From assembly GCA_024698005.1 (NCBI GenBank), contig JAILRW010000033.1, positions 1-39,705 on the forward strand: a stretch of 39,705 bases of DNA, written 5' to 3'. Under the pieces are notes generated by a model that did no database searches, was not told the DNA's origin, and saw only the letters and a program-made list of their open reading frames with translations. This stretch comes from Sphaerochaetaceae bacterium (lineage in GTDB: Bacteria > Spirochaetota > Spirochaetia > Sphaerochaetales > Sphaerochaetaceae). How positions within the stretch are numbered: position 1 is the stretch's first letter; each line of letters starts with the position of its first letter. The position numbers and the translations under genes were made by a program. This document shows positions 2,087-38,602 of this stretch, piece after piece.

Positions 2087-2999
2087 AACAAAGAAAAGCT
2101 TTGGGCTTGGAAAGGGCGTAAGTACTCTATTTGCTGATTATCAGCAGGACAATGAGCCTACTAAAATTGAAGAAAATAATGGCAATGTTTCACGTGAAAC
2201 AGTGCTTTTTGTTAAACTTGATTCAATTAAGCCAAATGAAAATCAGCCAAGAAAAGTATTCGAAGAAACTGCATTGAATGAACTTGCTGATTCTATACGT
2301 CATCAAGGTGTATTGCAACCAATTCTTGTAGAGGAATATGCTCCTGGAAAGTATTCTATAGTTGCAGGTGAAAGACGCTTCAGAGCAGCTCAGATTGCTG
2401 AATTGAAAGAAATTCCTGTAATTGTAAGAAAGTTTTCTGCAGTTCAGAAATCTGAGGTAGCACTTATTGAAAACATCCAGAGAGAGAATTTGAATGCTAT
2501 AGAAGAGGCAAGAGCATATAAAGATATTATCGAAAAATCTGGTATGTCTCAGAATGAGTTAGCAGATATGGTAGGTAAAAATAGAACTACTATAACTAAT
2601 AGCCTTAGACTCCTTCAGCTTCCAGATACAATTCAAGATGATCTTGTTTCTGGTGTTTTAACAGCAGGTCATGCACGCGCTATTCTTTCCCTTGTTAATC
2701 CTTCTGATAGAATCATTCTTAGAAATAGAATTGTTGAAAAAGACCTTTCTGTTAGAGATGCAGAAAGAGTTGCAGAGTCTTTTAATGAGGGTAAAAAACT
2801 CATTGTAAAGAAAAATGTGGTAAAAGCTAACGATGCTATTAAACAAGAAGTTGAGGATAAATTCCTGGAAGCTTTTGGAACCAAGGTTCAGGTTACAGGA
2901 AATCTCAGGAGAGGAAAGGTTGTTATCCCATACAAGAGCAAGAATGATCTCGAAAGACTCTACTCTTTGCTCTCAAAAGGCGAATTATTTGAAGATTAA
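2079..2999 (+). CDS. parB: chromosome-partitioning protein ParB (Spo0J)
   Basis: ParB binds parS and spreads along DNA as a CTP-dependent clamp. The N-terminal half has the ParB/Srx CTPase fold with the box GERRFRAAQ near residue 107. A helix-turn-helix follows (SQNELADMVGKNRTTITN), then a C-terminal dimerisation domain. The start is a GTG at 2079, supported by AAAGGAGGT at 2062-2070 and by the overlap with the end of parA. A perfect parS site lies inside the coding sequence and encodes the residues NVSRET, an arrangement seen in many bacterial parB genes. At 306 aa its length is normal. Confidence 0.95.
   Translation: MSKTKKSFGLGKGVSTLFADYQQDNEPTKIEENNGNVSRETVLFVKLDSIKPNENQPRKVFEETALNELADSIRHQGVLQPILVEEYAPGKYSIVAGERRFRAAQIAELKEIPVIVRKFSAVQKSEVALIENIQRENLNAIEEARAYKDIIEKSGMSQNELADMVGKNRTTITNSLRLLQLPDTIQDDLVSGVLTAGHARAILSLVNPSDRIILRNRIVEKDLSVRDAERVAESFNEGKKLIVKKNVVKANDAIKQEVEDKFLEAFGTKVQVTGNLRRGKVVIPYKSKNDLERLYSLLSKGELFED
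2186..2201. promoter_or_regulatory. parS site 3, inside parB
   Basis: A perfect 16-base TGTTTCACGTGAAACA lies within the parB reading frame. A degraded half site, TTTCACGTG, also sits at the parA-parB junction (2073-2081). Binding by ParB could nucleate spreading here and could repress the operon. Confidence 0.96.
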
Positions 3000-3023
3000 T
3001 TATTTATATTAAAAGGAAATAAC

Positions 3024-3974
3024 ATGAAAAAAGAAGATTTAAAAGATGGTCTTTATGCTATCATCCATACTGAAAAGGGAGATATTGCTCTTTCTTTGGA
3101 GTTTAAGAAGGTTCCAATGACAGTAATGAACTTCGTTGGCCTTGCTGAAGGTGTACTCAATATGGAAGATCCTGATGAACCATTTTATGATGGCCTTGTT
3201 TTCCACAGAGTCATTCCTGATTTCATGATTCAGGGTGGAGACCCAAGGGGAAATGGTACAGGAGGTCCTGGCTATCGCTTCCCTGATGAATTTGATGACT
3301 CTCTCAAGCACGATGCTCCTGGTGTTCTTTCTATGGCTAATGCAGGTCCTGGCACAAATGGCAGCCAGTTCTTCATTACACATGTCCCTACCCCATGGCT
3401 CAATGGTAAGCATTCTGTTTTTGGTCACGTAATTGAAGGTCAGAAGATTGTAGATTCTATTCAGCAGGGCGATAAAATTGAGTCAGTAGAAATCATTAGA
3501 GTTGGTGCAGAAGCAGAAGCTTTCAAGGCTACAAAGCAGGCGTTCTCTGATCTGGTAGAAGGCTGTGAAAAGAGAGCCAAGGCGAAAGAAGCAGAAGAGC
3601 AGAAAAAGCTTGATGCTGAGATCGCTAATAGATATCCAAATGCAATAAAGACACCTTCTGGACTCAAGTACGTTGTTATCAAGGAAGGTGCTGGTGATAA
3701 GAAGCCTAAGTATGGACAGAGTGTTACCGTCCATTATCAGGGCTCATTGATGAACGGTAAGATTTTTGACTCCTCTATCATGAGAGGAACTCCTGCATCT
3801 TTCCAGATTGGACAGGTAATTGAGGGTTGGAATGAAGCTCTTCAGACAATGAGAAAGGGAGAAAAGAGAACCCTTATTATCCCACCAGATCTTGGCTATG
3901 GAATTCACGGTTTCCCTGGAGTAATTCCTCCAAATGCTACCTTGATCTTCGATGTGGAGTTACTTGATTTCTAA
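3024..3974 (+). CDS. cyclophilin-FKBP dual peptidyl-prolyl isomerase
   Basis: Two unrelated prolyl isomerase folds are fused in one 316-residue protein. Residues about 10-165 are a cyclophilin with the canonical [23 protein letters not shown] and [10 protein letters not shown] motifs. A short charged helical linker (about 175-200) leads to an FKBP domain (about 210-316) with [24 protein letters not shown] and the terminal IFDVELLDF. Both active sites look intact. There is no signal peptide, so it should act in the cytoplasm on folding proteins. The ribosome binding site AAAAGGA precedes the ATG. The gene overlaps radA by one base (TAATG). Such CFBP chimeras are known from a few bacteria, including a treponeme. 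Confidence 0.93.
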
Positions 3975-5338
3975 TGAAAGGTGGTAGTTCAGTAGTTTAC
4001 GTCTGCTCAGAATGTGGACGAGAAGAAACAAAATGGATGGGTAGATGTCCTTCCTGTGGTTCCTGGAATACCTTTGTTGAAGAAAAGGTCGTAAAGGAAA
4101 GCAAGGACAAAACACAGGCTGCGATGCCGATAATTGATAAGACCCTCAAGAAGCTTTCTGAGGTCAAGGTCGATAAGGCATTTAGATTCTCCAGTGGGAT
4201 AGATGAGCTTGATAGGGTACTCGGTGGTGGTATCATGCGACCAAGTTCTGTTCTTGTTGGAGGAGAGCCTGGAATAGGTAAGTCTACTATAATGCTCCAG
4301 ATGGTCTCTTCTGCTGCTGAAAAAGGAAAAGTTTTATATGTATCTGGGGAGGAGTCACCTTCCCAGGTAAAACTCAGGGCTGACAGGCTCAAGCTTAATT
4401 TGGAAAAGATCAATATCTTTTGTGATACTCGCCTTGAAGCCCTTGTTGATGTTATCGAGGATCTAAAGCCAGCCGTAGTCGTTGTTGATTCCTTGCAGAC
4501 TCTTTCGACCTCTACTGTCCCTTCTATCGCAGGTTCTCCAAATCAGATGAGAGCCTGCTGTTATGCTCTTTCGATGCTTGCAAAGACAAATGATATTGCT
4601 CTTTTCCTTATCGGACACGTAACGAAGGAAGGAACAATCGCTGGTCCTAAAATTGTAGAGCATCTTGTTGATACAGTTCTTTATTTTGAATCCAGCGACA
4701 ACGGTGTAAGGTTTTTAAGGGCGGCTAAAAATCGATTTGGATCAGTAGATGAAATTGGAATCTTTCAAATGGAGGAAGAAGGTCTAAAGGCGGTTAAGGA
4801 TCCTTCTGAATTCTTTATTTCCAACAGAAAAGAAAATGAAATGCCTTGCGGGATTGCCTATACCGCTGTTGTGGAAGGGAGCCGAACTTTCCTTGTGGAG
4901 ATACAGGCTCTTACTATTCCTGCAAAAAGTGGCTTTACTCGCGTCTATTCTGATAGGGTTGATACAGCAAGGGTCAATAGAATTGCTGCGATTCTTGAAC
5001 GTCATGCAGGCCTTCATCTTTCAGATCAGGATATCTATGTGAATATCGCTGGTGGCATGAAGATAAATGAAGTCTCTATTGAACTTGCTATCGCTCTGGC
5101 TCTCTGGTCTGCAAGAACGGGAACCGTTCTTCCTGCAGACTTAGTAAGCTTCGGTGAATTATCTCTCGCTGGCGAGGTAAGGCCAGTATCGTTCCTTGAA
5201 AAAAGAATAAAGACTAGCGAAGAAATGGGCTTTAAGACACATCTGTCCCCAAGTGGACAGAAAGTAAAAGGTATAACTCCTTGTAGAAATATAAAGCAGG
5301 CAATAATGATAGGTAGGGGAATTAGTAAGGACAGCTAA
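3974..5338 (+). CDS. radA: DNA repair protein RadA
   Basis: RadA is a RecA-like ATPase/helicase that promotes branch migration in recombination. The 454 residues show an N-terminal C4 zinc finger (C11, C14, C25, C28), a Walker A motif GGEPGIGKST near residue 97, the diagnostic KNRFG motif (AAKNRFGSVDE), and a C-terminal Lon-protease-like domain. Length and domain order are standard. The ATG overlaps the stop codon of the upstream isomerase gene, so the two are coupled. The stop overlaps the stop of the convergent hydrolase gene within the tetranucleotide CTAA. Confidence 0.97.
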   Translation: MKGGSSVVYVCSECGREETKWMGRCPSCGSWNTFVEEKVVKESKDKTQAAMPIIDKTLKKLSEVKVDKAFRFSSGIDELDRVLGGGIMRPSSVLVGGEPGIGKSTIMLQMVSSAAEKGKVLYVSGEESPSQVKLRADRLKLNLEKINIFCDTRLEALVDVIEDLKPAVVVVDSLQTLSTSTVPSIAGSPNQMRACCYALSMLAKTNDIALFLIGHVTKEGTIAGPKIVEHLVDTVLYFESSDNGVRFLRAAKNRFGSVDEIGIFQMEEEGLKAVKDPSEFFISNRKENEMPCGIAYTAVVEGSRTFLVEIQALTIPAKSGFTRVYSDRVDTARVNRIAAILERHAGLHLSDQDIYVNIAGGMKINEVSIELAIALALWSARTGTVLPADLVSFGELSLAGEVRPVSFLEKRIKTSEEMGFKTHLSPSGQKVKGITPCRNIKQAIMIGRGISKDS

Positions 5339-6003
5339 TTAATAAGGAATCCTTCCTCTTCTTCGATTATCTGAGCAATTTTATCGCTTTCATATACATA
5401 GCTGCCGTGGTCCTCATCCGGCAGAATTCTTAATTCATTGTTGCGTATATTAGCAGCAATAAAGGATGTATCTTTGAGTCTAATTATGTCGTGTTCTCCT
5501 GTAAGTATGAGTGCATGGCATTTGATCCTTCGTAGATCTTCTCGAGTTATATGAGGCTCCTGGACCATAAGGCGTGAAAGCTCATTTCCCGTCTCTTCGT
5601 ATTCCCTTTTCATTTCAAGGAAGGGGCGCTTCTTAATTCCATGAGGATTAGTATTGGCTCCACATGTGATTATAGCTTTAACAAGAGATGGATATCTGGA
5701 CGCAACTAAAAGGGCTAAGATTCCTCCGTCGGAAAAGCCACAAATTATAGGTCTGTTGATATTAAGTGCCTTTATAAAGGAAACGATATCCTCTGCCATA
5801 TCATCATAGTGCAGAGACTCTACGTGCCCAGAAAGCCCATGATTCCTAGAATCAAGAAGATATACATTATATTTGGATTGAAGGATATCCGCTGACTTAT
5901 AGAAAATAGTGTGGTCTTCACCATTTCCGTGGATAAAGATAAGGGGTTGTCCTTTTCCGTAGTTTTCATAATAAATATCGATATTATTGATATTGATGAA
6001 CAT
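5335..6003 (-). CDS. alpha/beta hydrolase, small form
   Basis: This is a 222-residue alpha/beta hydrolase with a visible triad: nucleophile elbow GFSDGG (Ser91), an acid in TGEHD, and His in DEDHGSY. The oxyanion-region motif IFIHGNGED lies near residue 25. The family usually runs to 250-280 residues, and here the lid between strands 6 and 7 is short. The substrate cannot be inferred from sequence; esterase or peptidase activity are both possible. There is no signal peptide. It converges on radA with a 4-base overlap and is divergent from the galactarate block. Confidence 0.85.
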   Translation of the reverse strand: MFININNIDIYYENYGKGQPLIFIHGNGEDHTIFYKSADILQSKYNVYLLDSRNHGLSGHVESLHYDDMAEDIVSFIKALNINRPIICGFSDGGILALLVASRYPSLVKAIITCGANTNPHGIKKRPFLEMKREYEETGNELSRLMVQEPHITREDLRRIKCHALILTGEHDIIRLKDTSFIAANIRNNELRILPDEDHGSYVYESDKIAQIIEEEEGFLIN

Positions 6004-33277: not shown

Positions 33278-34418
33278 TTACAGATTAGCCTTGAGATCAC
33301 TAATCTCCTGCTTTGTAAGACCAATTGACAAGAGATAATTCTCTGCTCCCTTCTGGAGATCTGCAGAATAGAAATCATTGATGTTAAAGGCCTTCTGGAT
33401 ACTCTTTACGATATTGCTAGAAGCAATTGCATTGTACTTTTCACTTCCTTTTTCAACACCATAGTAGTTGTGGTAGGTAACCATGTAGTCCTCGAGAACT
33501 TCTTTTGCACTTGCTCCCATCAAGCATTCGAGAACAGCTGAAGTAAAACCAGCTCTGTCCTTTCCTTCGTTACAGTGAACAACATATACTCCTGGATTCT
33601 TTGCCATAAATTTGAGGCCTTCTGCTAAACCTTTCTTGAAGTCATCAGCTTCAAAGTCTACTCCAAGACCAAGGCATTTGACTTTCAGTGTTGAGTAATA
33701 GGAGTTGGCATATTCAGGTCTTCCTTCTAATACGAACTGACTATCAGCAAGGTTAATTGCAACAGTAACGCCAGCAGCCTTACAAGCTGCATCTGCCTGA
33801 GTGTTTCTTCCAATTTCTGGATTAACAGGGTGTGAAGATCTGTAGAGCTTACCATGCATTCCAGTTGTTGTTACCTGACGGAAGTTTGCAAATTCTTTAT
33901 CTGTGAGAGTCTTGTAGTCATTTCTATTGTTTGTTCTAGTGAGGTCTTTGAGTAGGAACTGTGAAAGGTATCCTCCTTTTTCAGCCATTATAAAGGTTAT
34001 TTTAAAAGGAATCTCAACACCATCGAATGCAGTCCAAAACCATGTCTTATCTGGGTTTGTTGTCTTCTTTGCTATTCCATAGGTCTCTGTAAAGTTTCCC
34101 ATGTTGATAGCCAGGGAAATACTTCCAGCAGGGTTCCCAGCTGCATCCTTTCCCATAATAATAGCAGGGCTACCAGTATCTACACCTGAATAGGTTGGTA
34201 CAATCTGGAAGTTCTAGCTTTTGATCAAGGAAATATACTTGAACAATGTCTCCCCATTCAAAACCTTTTGCAACAAACTCATCAGCAGTTCCTGTTGTGT
34301 TGAGGTTTCCATATTTTGACATATATTTGTTTGCCTCAAGACTTGGAAGTTCTGCCTGATAGATTCCTCCCATTTCTCTTATTGCCTGTGCTGTGAGTAC
34401 AGAAAGCAAAACCATCAA
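33278..34418 (-). pseudogene. frameshifted secreted tyrosine-phosphatase-like protein
   Basis: Two adjacent minus-strand frames encode one protein. The 5' part (34170-34418) holds a hydrophobic signal-like leader and a domain ending DQKLELP, then runs into a wrong frame and stops. The 3' part (33278-34156) continues IVPTYSGVDTGSPAIIM, then carries a phosphatase domain with HCNEGKDR (the HCX5R signature). Removing one base near 34212 restores ELPIVPTYSGV. A proper signal peptide (KKRAFTTVLILMVLL...TAQA) can be read upstream of the first ATG but has no start codon. So the gene looks inactivated twice, or the sequence contains errors. Function of the intact form would be a secreted Tyr/Ser phosphatase. 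Confidence 0.75.
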
Positions 34419-34502
34419 TATGAGAACAGTAGTAAACGCTCTTTTTTTGAATGTGAAATAAGAAAATATAAAATGTAGTTGTATTATATCATCATATAAT
34501 TG

Positions 34503-34544
34503 AAACAGAAAAACCCTTGCTATTGTTTTTTTAAAGCAAGGGTT
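34503..34544 (-). terminator. terminator of the MscS-sensor gene
   Basis: AACCCTTGC (34512-34520) and GCAAGGGTT (34536-34544) pair, and on the minus strand a TTTTTCTG run follows. Confidence 0.8.
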
Positions 34545-34568
34545 AACTATAAGAATTATGAAGAGATC

Positions 34569-37500
34569 TTAATTATCGGTTGCGATATCGACTTCAGCAG
34601 AAGCTTCCTTCTGTTCTTCGATAAACTTTTCCGCTTCCTTTTTCTCCTTTGCTGTTGTTCCTTTCGTTTCCTTTTCGTTGAGATAAGAAACAGTAACCTG
34701 TGGGAATGGAACGTTGATATCATTCTTGTTGAATACAAGATATAGCTCCCTGTTAAGGTCTCTTGTAAGCTGGAATCTATCAGACTCTTCACACTGTGCA
34801 ACTATGAGCAGATTTACAGAGTTGTCTCCCAGACAGGAGACTCCTTTATAGAAAGGTCCTCTGATAATAGCTTTCAACTTTCTCTTTATTCTAGGGAACT
34901 CCTTCTTGAGAACACTTTCAACTCGCTCAAGAGATTCTCCATATTCAATTGCCATTTCAATATGAACAAACGAGACGTCATTTGTCATGTTGGTGACCTT
35001 TGTGATGGCACTATTGTTGAATATTTTTACGTTTCCATACGCATCTTCAATATTTGTGGTTCTGATGCCGATTTTGATAACTGTACCTCTGAAATCTTCA
35101 ATCGATACAATGTCTCCAACTCGGAACTCTCCTTCAAACACTATGAATATGCCAGCAATGATATCGGACATGAGACTTTGTGCACCAAGACCAATAACAA
35201 TGGAGATGATACCGGCAGAAGCAAGGAGAGAGGCAGGCTTCAAGCCAAAGAGATATAGGGAATAGAAGAGGGCAACGAGAGCACCGCCGTACTGTAAAAC
35301 AGATTCAAGCAAATGTCCGACAGTTTCTGCTCTTGCTCCAATATTTGCTGTAAGGGAATTGATTATCTTTTGCAGAACCTTTGCACCAGATATTACGATT
35401 ATAAAAATGATGACACAGCGGGAGAAAACAAAAATATTAGCGCCGTGCTCTATGTCTCCTTTGATAATGTAATAGAATATCGAGTCATGATTGTTTGTGT
35501 TGTTAACAATCATTACAGAAATAAAAACGACAAGGAAGATAATGCTGTAATATATTTCAGTAATTGAAGCGAATTTCTGTTCTAAAGTTTTTGTCTTCCA
35601 TTCATTGATGTTCTTGCTGTTGAGAAGTATTTCTGAACCTATATTTCTTGCCTTTTTACTTTCTTTTAACAGTTCCTCTTCTTGCTCCTCGTTTTGTTCT
35701 ATTATTCGTTTGAAAATTTCATTTTCCTTGTTCGTGCTGAACATAAGGAAAGCAAGAATGGCTAATAAGGAAACAAGAGAGATGAGAACAGTTGCCATCG
35801 CTATTCTAAATCTGAATGCAAATAATGAGTTGGTAGGGATAGCCGTTCCTATGAACATATCTCCTATTTTTCTGATAGAAACGAAGTAGTCCATTTCATT
35901 TATTGTCATATATCCGTTATATGAGCCAGAGAACATGGCACTTCTTGTCTTTATTTCGACGCCATGAGCAAAAGGAGAATAGATAATATCGTGGCTCTCA
36001 TTGTCCTTGAAGCTCATGAAAACACCTTTATAGGACATGTTCTTACTCTGAAGTGCATAATCAATAGACTTCATTTTGAGAACTTCAGCCTTGTTTTCAT
36101 ACGAGATGCCTATCTGTACTAGGCCTCTGTGTCTTGTGATCTCTGAGCTTGGAACAATAATGTTTTCGTTTTCATCAAGAACCCCATTTTTATATTCTGA
36201 TTCAGAAACAAAACGAGTGATTCCGTTGTCGTTATATGTATAGTAGTAGTAGACGCTGCCGATGAACTGCTCAAGTTCTCCAAGTACCTCGTTTTCCTGA
36301 AGTTCCTGGAAGAGGTGGTCGGAATTTATGAGAACATCTCTAAATGCATATGACTGAGCATTTGGATCGTTACTCAGTTCAAAATTCCACCAAGGGGTAT
36401 TGGTTGCGATAACTCTACCTTTATCGTTGAAGATATAAATTGATGATAGGCCAAATGAGTCACAAAGTGTCTGGAGTATCGGTATGTTCCTTCCCGTGAA
36501 TACAGGGTTTCCATAGTCATCAAGGACAATAGTATTATCTTTGGTTTTGGCATACTCATAGTGGGCCTCATCAGTCATGTCGTAATTGAAGGCAAGTTCA
36601 GGAGATCTTTTCAATATCTCAGCGAGAAGTTGGTTCTTATATAGGTTCTGTTTATCAAAGAATTGCGTTACTGTTTCTGCTGCCTTGGTATTCTTTTTAA
36701 CACTTGCATCTAGTTCTTTGATTCTTGCCTCTGAGGTTTTCAATGCGGTGGTAAGCTGAGACGTGGTCTGTGAAATCATAGACACGCCAAAAATAGCTAG
36801 AAGACCAATTATAAGAAGAGGTATTACCTTCTTTCCAATAGTTGAGTTGTAGAATACTTCTTTGCCTGATTTTGTTTTGAACAAGAAGATTTGGTCTTCG
36901 AATATTGTTCCTTCCTTGACTTGACCTAACATGATCAAAATGACATAGCAGAGAATTAGTGAGCCAACTAGAACAAAGGCGATAGTTGACCAGAAGACAT
37001 CTGTAAATCTAGACCTGTATAACTCGAAATCTGGTGTAGCAGCTACTAAAAGAACTTCGTTTGAGAATACATCGGAAGAATATTTTCTTGATATGCAGAA
37101 ATAGGATTCACCCTCAATTTTTTGAAATCCAGAGTAACCATCTTTTAGGATGTCATCGGTAATACCGCATTCTCTAAAATCCCTATCTGTCAATATGAGA
37201 CCATCAGAATTTTTGAAGAAGGAGAATGTGCCATTTTCTGGGTCTAGGGTAAAAATGAAGCCAGAGCTATTTATCTGGATTGAATTGAGTAATGTCTGGA
37301 TGCTTTTGAGACTTTGTAGATCATTATTGATCTGACTTGAGTTAGCTGCGGCAACAAGATAATAACCGGTAGGTGTTCCATCTGCATTCAAAACAGGGTA
37401 GCTGTAATAGTACCCACTGTATTTTGCTTTGTCTGTTAAGTCCGTTGTTGCAATTACAGGGTTGAATTCTGTTCCATTTTTGATAGTTGTTCTTGTTGTA

Positions 37501-38042
37501 CCAGTCCATCCATTTTCAGATGCAGTAAGGATCTTGAACTGCTCTGGGGTAAAGACTCCTGTTGGGTTAGAGTTTGTTCTTATTAAATTGTATTTTATGA
37601 TTTTTCCTATTTCCTCATGTTGTGTGTCATAATTGTTAGCTAGAACAATGTTACCTTTGGTATCAATTACAAATACTGAGTCGAAACCAGTGTTAGCAAC
37701 AAAACTATCCAATGTACTAATCACTGATTTTAATTCTCTTTTTGTTTGTATTTTACTGCTTCCTTCGGCCTGAAAAAATAGGGCAATAAGATGTAAGGTG
37801 CTCTGGTTTGAACTGTGAAATTTGTTCGTAAGGTGTTTTATTTCTTCAGTGTGAAGATCGAATTCCTTCGTTATTTCGTTGAGCATAGGAAGAAGGTTCA
37901 TGTTTTTCTGATTCCTCTCAACGCTTTTGGTCTGCATCCAGAAAAGAGCAACAAACATTATGGAGATTGCTATTATCGTAGTAATGATATAGGCACTAAT
38001 AATCCCCTTGAATGAAGCTACTTTTTTTCTAGATTCTTTCAT
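34569..38042 (-). CDS. twin-Cache sensor fused to an MscS mechanosensitive channel
   Basis: This is a 1157-residue membrane protein. Order: TM helix (about 15-35), extracytoplasmic Cache-like domain with VFVIDTKGNIVLAN (about 40-345), two TM helices (about 345-370 and 405-425), a second Cache-like domain with SIYIFNDKGRVIATN (about 430-740), a TM helix, a charged coiled-coil (about 770-805), more TM helices, and an MscS core. The core has the pore helix PASLLASAGIISIVIGLGAQ and SDIIAGIFIVFEGEFRVGDIV, then the beta domain and an acidic/lysine tail. MscS opens on membrane tension; Cache domains bind small ligands outside the cell, so ligand-gated or modulated ion flow is inferred. GGAGGG precedes the ATG. 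No partner gene adjoins it. Confidence 0.9.
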   Translation of the reverse strand: MKESRKKVASFKGIISAYIITTIIAISIMFVALFWMQTKSVERNQKNMNLLPMLNEITKEFDLHTEEIKHLTNKFHSSNQSTLHLIALFFQAEGSSKIQTKRELKSVISTLDSFVANTGFDSVFVIDTKGNIVLANNYDTQHEEIGKIIKYNLIRTNSNPTGVFTPEQFKILTASENGWTGTTRTTIKNGTEFNPVIATTDLTDKAKYSGYYYSYPVLNADGTPTGYYLVAAANSSQINNDLQSLKSIQTLLNSIQINSSGFIFTLDPENGTFSFFKNSDGLILTDRDFRECGITDDILKDGYSGFQKIEGESYFCISRKYSSDVFSNEVLLVAATPDFELYRSRFTDVFWSTIAFVLVGSLILCYVILIMLGQVKEGTIFEDQIFLFKTKSGKEVFYNSTIGKKVIPLLIIGLLAIFGVSMISQTTSQLTTALKTSEARIKELDASVKKNTKAAETVTQFFDKQNLYKNQLLAEILKRSPELAFNYDMTDEAHYEYAKTKDNTIVLDDYGNPVFTGRNIPILQTLCDSFGLSSIYIFNDKGRVIATNTPWWNFELSNDPNAQSYAFRDVLINSDHLFQELQENEVLGELEQFIGSVYYYYTYNDNGITRFVSESEYKNGVLDENENIIVPSSEITRHRGLVQIGISYENKAEVLKMKSIDYALQSKNMSYKGVFMSFKDNESHDIIYSPFAHGVEIKTRSAMFSGSYNGYMTINEMDYFVSIRKIGDMFIGTAIPTNSLFAFRFRIAMATVLISLVSLLAILAFLMFSTNKENEIFKRIIEQNEEQEEELLKESKKARNIGSEILLNSKNINEWKTKTLEQKFASITEIYYSIIFLVVFISVMIVNNTNNHDSIFYYIIKGDIEHGANIFVFSRCVIIFIIVISGAKVLQKIINSLTANIGARAETVGHLLESVLQYGGALVALFYSLYLFGLKPASLLASAGIISIVIGLGAQSLMSDIIAGIFIVFEGEFRVGDIVSIEDFRGTVIKIGIRTTNIEDAYGNVKIFNNSAITKVTNMTNDVSFVHIEMAIEYGESLERVESVLKKEFPRIKRKLKAIIRGPFYKGVSCLGDNSVNLLIVAQCEESDRFQLTRDLNRELYLVFNKNDINVPFPQVTVSYLNEKETKGTTAKEKKEAEKFIEEQKEASAEVDIATDN

Positions 38043-38365
38043 AGAACACCCTCCAACAGTATAAAAAAAGATCTTGTTTCTTGCGAATTGTAATTCATTC
38101 TTTGTTAAGAAAAAAGAAAGAAGTACTTATATGAATCATAATAACAGGAAACTTATCCATTTTGAGTCAGTAAAATTAGTTATAAAACAAATTTTAATGG
38201 CTTATTTGAGCTAAAACATTGAAGAGAGAAGAGCAGTATCCTCAATGAGCTTAAATGTAAGTAAAACTAATAATATAATTAAATAGGCATAGAAAGGGAT
38301 TAAACAGAAAAGATATTTCTTTTCAGGTCACTTTTTGAGTCAATTTCAATAATATGTGCAAAATA
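38043..38365. other. non-coding, upstream of the MscS-sensor gene
   Basis: About 320 AT-rich bases hold the presumed promoter of the 1157-residue protein. I find no ORF with a start signal and no convincing promoter or RNA here. Confidence 0.5.
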
Positions 38366-38401
38366 TATAAAAAAATAACTCCTTGCAATTGAAGGAGTTA
38401 T
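38366..38401 (-). terminator. terminator downstream of the tRNA fragment
   Basis: ATAACTCCTT, 7-base loop, AAGGAGTTAT forms a perfect 10-bp stem (38375-38401), followed on the minus strand by TTTTTTATAT. Its place after the tRNA 3' end suggests it terminated the original tRNA gene. Confidence 0.88.
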
Positions 38402-38416
38402 CATTCTATCAGTTTA

Positions 38417-38456
38417 CGAGACCAAGAGGATTCGAACCTCCGACCCTCAGTTCCGC
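38417..38456 (-). pseudogene. 3' fragment of a tRNA gene, probable attachment site
   Basis: The minus strand contains a complete T arm (GGAGG, TTCGAAT, CCTCT) followed by TGGTCTCG as the acceptor 3' strand. Before it are a variable loop and the anticodon-arm 3' strand (CGGAACTGAGGGTC). The 5' half (acceptor strand GAGACCA, D arm) is missing. Loss of the 5' half while the 3' end and terminator remain is what integration into a tRNA leaves at one end. The identity is unresolved. Confidence 0.72.
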
Positions 38457-38602
38457 AAGGGTAAGGTCATCCAAATTAATTCCTTTTGGAGTAGGTAGAT
38501 AGAGAAGATTAAACCAGAAAAAAAGGACTCATAAAGGACTGAATCACAGGGAAATTTAGGGAGAATGGACTGAGGGTCCAAACTCTAATTTTCGGTAGGG
38601 TA

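Follow-up and report, generated by a model that had tools for sequence, protein, structure and literature searches.

MscS channels are known mainly as tension valves, and no extracellular sensor is commoner in prokaryotes than the Cache domain. In the bCNG channels, an intracellular nucleotide is sensed by a C-terminal cytoplasmic domain. We know of no dCache modules in MscK, MscM or YbiO. It is recognised that some MscS subfamilies carry additional ligand-binding domains or large loops outside the cell (PMC4560390); the initial annotation of the locus described here, according to which MscS channels usually respond to tension only, was worded too strongly, because other members carry such ligand-binding additions (PMC4560390). 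On the sensor side, the Cache outputs tabulated in 2016 include kinases, chemoreceptors, cyclases, phosphatases and calcium-channel-type proteins, and MscS is not among them in the excerpted part of PMC4822843. Our literature search found no relevant combination of MscS with Cache or dCache. MscS with ligand-binding additions was thus already known, and the literature searched contained no double-dCache form.

Here we describe such a form in a stretch of 39,705 nucleotides (the window; contig JAILRW010000033.1 of assembly GCA_024698005.1) from a Sphaerochaetaceae bacterium, a gut or rumen spirochaete whose genome is a 1.68 Mb draft in 169 contigs. The annotated observation, a single chain joining extracytoplasmic sensors to an MscS-type channel, was confirmed as real.

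The pore helix, beta domain and vestibule align with E. coli and Thermoanaerobacter MscS (PDB 2vv5 and 3udc) over residues 876-1128. These two channels lack sensor modules, whereas the fusion adds five TM helices and about 830 residues before the core. It shares with bCNG (cited in PMC4560390) a ligand-binding module fused to an MscS core; however, its sensors are N-terminal, periplasmic and of the Cache type, and a Pfam scan of the protein found no cyclic-nucleotide-binding domain. Like E. coli MscK, MscM and YbiO, it has a large N-terminal extension, extra TM helices and a C-terminal MscS core, but no similarity between these proteins and the fusion was found outside the MscS core region. 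The MscK equivalog model NF008438 gave E 5.7e-20 and 70.7 bits, far under its cut-off of 991. With the dCache chemoreceptors and kinases PctA, Mlp24, Mlp37, Tlp3 and DctB, the protein shares the sensor fold and the TM-sensor-TM layout; it differs from them in having an ion channel as output instead of an MCP, kinase or cyclase, in its tandem modules and in the missing amino-acid motif. Extracellular Cache domains are also tied to channel function in the Cache-bearing channel system covered by PMC4822843, where they lie in a separate auxiliary subunit, in contrast to the fusion, which has them in the pore-forming chain.

Architecture of the fusion protein

The gene and the parts of its product lie as follows (window coordinates, all on the minus strand):

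34569..38042, minus: whole gene of the double dCache-MscS fusion, 1157 aa; ORF intact from ATG to TAA, with orthologues
38049..38054, minus: ribosome-binding site GGAGGG shortly 5' of the ATG, from the sequence
37947..38003, minus: TM1, aa 14-32, cytoplasm to periplasm; hydropathy 2.42, 5 K/R before the helix
36993..37937, minus: sensor module 1, aa 36-350, predicted dCache fold; dCache_1 match below cut-off, AlphaFold, Foldseek
36924..36992, minus: TM2, about aa 351-373; hydropathy 2.95
36774..36833, minus: TM3, about aa 404-423; hydropathy 2.56, K/R 4 before and 1 after
35799..36773, minus: sensor module 2, aa 424-748, predicted dCache fold, homologous to module 1; AlphaFold, Foldseek, hhalign
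35736..35798, minus: TM4, about aa 749-769; hydropathy 2.67
35565..35735, minus: charged cytoplasmic linker, aa 770-826, ending in a conserved W..K(S/T).EQKF; alignments and motif check
35499..35564, minus: TM5, about aa 827-848, extra helix ahead of the MscS core; hydropathy 2.24, K/R 3 before and 0 after
35430..35483, minus: periplasmic loop signature SIxxYxxxG-x(6)-N(I/L)(F/Y), aa 854-871; motif comparison
35133..35240, minus: pore-lining helix, aa 935-970, equivalent to TM3 of E. coli MscS; alignment to solved MscS
34983..35174, minus: MscS beta domain PF00924, aa 957-1020; E 3.3e-14
34680..34982, minus: alpha/beta domain of the MscS cytoplasmic vestibule, aa 1021-1121; aligned up to residue 1128 with the solved structures 3udc and 2vv5
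34512..34544, minus: intrinsic-terminator-like hairpin directly 3' of the stop codon; fold z = -6.2

The hairpin has a loop of 13, which is why a consensus terminator scan missed it. Promoter-like matches around the gene, including one at 38058-38087, were not more numerous than expected by chance. Since GGAGGG precedes the ATG and a terminator-like hairpin follows the stop codon, the gene is most likely a single-gene transcription unit in the window. As for compositional signs of recent transfer, its GC content is 37.5%, compared to 40-48% for most neighbours, but codon use was not clearly alien.

The C-terminal part was unambiguously assigned by sequence to an MscS channel whose core, with gate residues and vestibule, is intact. 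PF00924 matched with 53.2 bits against a curated cut-off of 20.2, and profile alignment to solved structures reached E 3.6e-33 with 3udc (over residues 905-1128) and E 5.1e-16 with 2vv5. Together with the gate positions, these matches bear out the intact pore and vestibule that had been annotated. In the pore helix, I948, G951, L952 and Q955 are the equivalents of L105, G108, L109 and Q112 in E. coli; the hydrophobic gate positions are thus I and L in the fusion, which retains the residues of G108 and Q112 but has Ser956 at the hinge position G113. As G113 matters for inactivation of E. coli MscS (PMC4560390), inactivation of the fusion channel may, by analogy, differ.

Hydropathy predicted eight helices in the protein and, with the positive-inside charge asymmetry, placed both large loops (aa 36-350 and 424-748) on the outer side of the membrane and the vestibule on the inner side. 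Beyond what had been annotated, each dCache module comes with its own transmembrane pair, and an extra helix precedes the MscS core.

By sequence, the sensor regions were recognised only faintly: module 1 matched Pfam dCache_1 with E 2.7e-4 and 21 bits against a cut-off of 45, module 2 had no usable match in the Pfam scan, and a sequence-profile search of both regions against the PDB returned nothing significant. Fold comparison alone gave matches. AlphaFold models, built from 14 family sequences for module 1 and 13 for module 2, had mean pLDDT values of 79 and 83, and each shows a long helix (about 55 residues) and, after it, two PAS-like alpha/beta subdomains. In Foldseek searches against the PDB, both modules matched solved dCache sensors with probability 1.00 (E down to 1.4e-8 for module 1 and 4.7e-8 for module 2), and the matches, at E 1e-8 to 1e-6, were almost exclusively dCache domains of chemoreceptors and kinases. 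TM-scores of 0.2-0.5 to solved dCache domains support the fold type and not the detailed geometry; as these scores are low, the models cannot be relied on for how subdomains and helix are placed relative to each other. Because no Pfam Cache match exceeded its cut-off, membership of the dCache fold rests on structure prediction. The models confirmed each extracytoplasmic part as a predicted complete dCache module between its own TM helices. As each is then a double Cache, the modelled subunit holds four Cache subdomains and not two. The Cache folds that had been annotated from the sequence therefore hold in the models, although their number doubles and neither module reaches a Pfam Cache cut-off.

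The two modules aligned with each other over 265 columns (hhalign probability 97.5, E 8.5e-12). As judged from these profiles, they are homologous and represent a duplicated TM-dCache-TM unit. The sensor profile also detects sensor regions in receptors of the GGDEF, MCP and SpoIIE types.

The initial annotation had suggested amino acids as possible ligands. The universal amino-acid motif of dCache_1AA domains, [YFWL]xxx(x)[RK]xW[YFW]...[YFW]...D (PMC11237719), is missing from modules 1 and 2 and from all homologues in both alignments, so sensing through this standard motif was ruled out and an amino-acid ligand is, on sequence grounds, not favoured. Domains of the dCache type that bind purines, amines or organic acids also lack the full motif (PMC11245519, PMC10104139).

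Distribution and genomic setting

The same domain order, which the initial annotation had proposed to look for in other spirochaetes, was found in 10 of the 139 family genomes and 4 of the 22 genera; a match in genome G022 is left out of this count, being a SpoIIE receptor instead. Full-length homologues in other genera have about 50% identity to the window protein. A scan of contig collections with the single protein as query found nothing, and an alignment-based scan returned ordinary Psychrobacter MscS and two named rumen spirochaete records that carry the order, CADCOT010000089.1 (RUG14846) and CAJOOY010000056.1 (Rumen_Coassembly_mag_2246). Outside the family, samples of 393 spirochaete genomes phylum-wide and 395 class-wide yielded no full-length homologue; the three short matches examined there (L088, L107, L108) are MCP or GGDEF receptors. 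Plasmid and viral collections contained no relatives of the fusion.

Two subfamilies can be distinguished. Subfamily A, to which the window protein belongs, comprises proteins of about 1150-1210 aa with a canonical pore and 30-51% identity to the window protein. Subfamily B has the same layout in about 1020-1050 aa and a divergent pore. In its members (L077, L078, L080, L081 and L082; genomes G160, G159, G155 and G157), the pore helix reads TGGxxGVIFGIxC..., off the usual pattern. One subfamily B fusion (L080, 814-2487 with 2615-5566) is arranged head to head with the gene of a PAS-bearing protein that resembles iron-only hydrogenases.

In the alignments, the sensor regions diverge fast (14-46% identity to the window) and the pore is best conserved. 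The loop signature SIxxYxxxG...N(I/L)(F/Y) is present in all 12 family proteins of both subfamilies, with conservative changes in one copy, compared to none of 13 ordinary spirochaete MscS. Against these 13, the MscS cores of all fusions grouped together with full support in a midpoint-rooted tree, a result compatible with a single origin of the fusion among the proteins sampled. Its retention in 10 genomes of 4 genera, at 30-51% identity within subfamily A, suggests that the whole architecture was probably selected as a unit.

Locally, the gene is absent from 15 genomes of the same genus. Collinearity with the sister genome G006 covers the LIV transporter operon (92-97% identity at the protein level) and the adjacent phosphatase gene (74%), and 90 bases directly upstream of the fusion gene (38370-38458) have a match there as well. 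Between these shared flanks, G006 has a surface-protein-like gene instead (window 34340-38370 versus L140 3012-7286). The fusion gene thus occupies a variable slot and was either gained in the window genome or lost in G006. The 90-base flank occurs in two copies in G006 and in one in the window's genome. Misbinning of the contig was rejected: its DnaX is closest to same-genus genomes (80% and 74%), and its LIV operon has 92-97% identity to that of a same-genus genome. Next to the fusion gene, a tyrosine-phosphatase-like gene (PF13350; 33278-34568, minus strand) is split into two frames that overlap near 34170-34213; G006 has an intact copy of 392 aa, and the split reflects a frameshift, a pseudogene or a sequencing error.

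The draft genome holds no chemoreceptor signalling domain (PF00015), unlike many spirochaetes, and for this reason the Cache modules of the fusion do not serve chemotaxis. One other dCache-like protein, a histidine kinase, is encoded in the genome, as is a second MscS, of ordinary type and cut off at a contig end.

In three related loci, an SDF symporter with an extra N-terminal domain lies next to or near the fusion gene (L072 1303-2952, L087 4769-6397, L077 693-2288). The two genes are on the same strand and 77 bp apart in G033, divergent in G157 and G155, and separated by one small gene in the subfamily B genome G160. The extra domain, of about 130 residues, has no Pfam name and by eye resembles an anti-sigma-type ATPase. 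Elsewhere in the family, such symporters adjoin SpoIIE phosphatases (L128, L129, L134), one of which has a Cache-like sensor region. In the window, no such symporter flanks the fusion gene, and those SDF proteins that were found in the genome are without the extra domain. The neighbourhood in the related loci hints at solute-transport physiology, and the symporter is a plausible functional neighbour of the fusion in these three. The annotated suggestion that the protein could work without partners agrees with the situation in the window.

A proposed ligand-tuned valve and its alternatives

The mechanism that we favour, and rate somewhat better than even, is an inner-membrane valve of the MscS type in which a periplasmic ligand would tune the opening threshold by way of two serial dCache modules. 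By analogy, the protein would form a homoheptamer, with the two periplasmic modules one after the other on the N-terminal side of the core in each subunit. A small molecule in the periplasm would bind one or both modules and shift their TM helices; the shift would be relayed by TM2-TM4, the cytoplasmic linker and TM5 until it reaches the tension-sensing helices, and sensor occupancy would thereby change the membrane tension at which the pore opens. The outcome would be a ligand-tuned osmotic or solute-release valve and not a purely ligand-gated channel. In its favour are the intact MscS core, the nearly exclusive resemblance of both sensors to dCache domains of chemoreceptors and kinases, the homology of the two modules, the predicted topology, the conservation of the whole architecture and the loop signature common to both subfamilies. 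The missing amino-acid motif, the low TM-scores and the sub-threshold Pfam match of sensor 1 count against such tuning. So does the fact that the big N-terminal additions of other large MscS paralogues have no known small-molecule site.

The same observations can be read structurally, with the dCache modules forming a large paddle in the periplasm that would set tension sensitivity or anchor the channel to the envelope, their ligand pockets having lost function. The lack of the motif in every homologue and the fast divergence of the sensors around a conserved pore would agree with this, as would the added helices of the E. coli paralogues and the sensor paddles that set gating pressure (PMC12375004). 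Yet four sensor-type subdomains with the fold of ligand-binding chemoreceptors are kept in every homologue, and the purine, amine and organic-acid sensors mentioned above show that a dCache domain can bind ligands without the full motif; we consider the structural reading rather unlikely. Distinctly less probable is a ligand-gated channel proper, opened by ligand without added membrane tension. Its sensors are fused directly to the pore, and the MscS family includes channels described as cyclic-nucleotide-gated (bCNG, cited in PMC4560390), but the tension-sensing core is kept here and at least one bCNG member is reported to gate by tension, according to a reference title in that paper.

The symporter loci could also point to an MscS module that does not conduct and serves mainly as a multimeric platform for signalling or scaffolding, coupled to the adjacent symporter, a role that the pairing of the same symporter type with SpoIIE phosphatases would suit. 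The pore and vestibule residues are, however, the best conserved, and no such symporter lies beside the gene in the window, which makes this reading very improbable. Finally, a 169-contig draft could contain an assembly artefact or a chance ORF joining unrelated genes, a possibility that the initial annotation had raised and to which we give almost no credence: it was excluded by the recurrence of the domain order in full-length homologues from independent genomes of four genera, among them the two named records, by the single grouping of all fusion MscS cores and by contig flanks collinear with the sister genome.

Sensors of the dCache type usually act as dimers. In the ligand-tuned valve, the tandem modules may pair within one subunit, an arrangement that would suit a seven-fold channel because these sensors are normally dimeric. 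A bolder version, possible but doubtful in our judgement, would make these proteins a new class of bacterial channels: the opening of the MscS pore would be set directly by a chemical in the periplasm, and the duplicated dCache module would form a sensor dimer within each subunit and so fit a two-fold sensor to a seven-fold channel.

The architecture offers a ready basis for building chemically controlled channels. It also lets one ask how a normally dimeric sensor couples to a seven-fold channel and, as a single-chain fusion kept in several genera, provides a system for asking whether an extracellular metabolite tunes a mechanosensitive pore.
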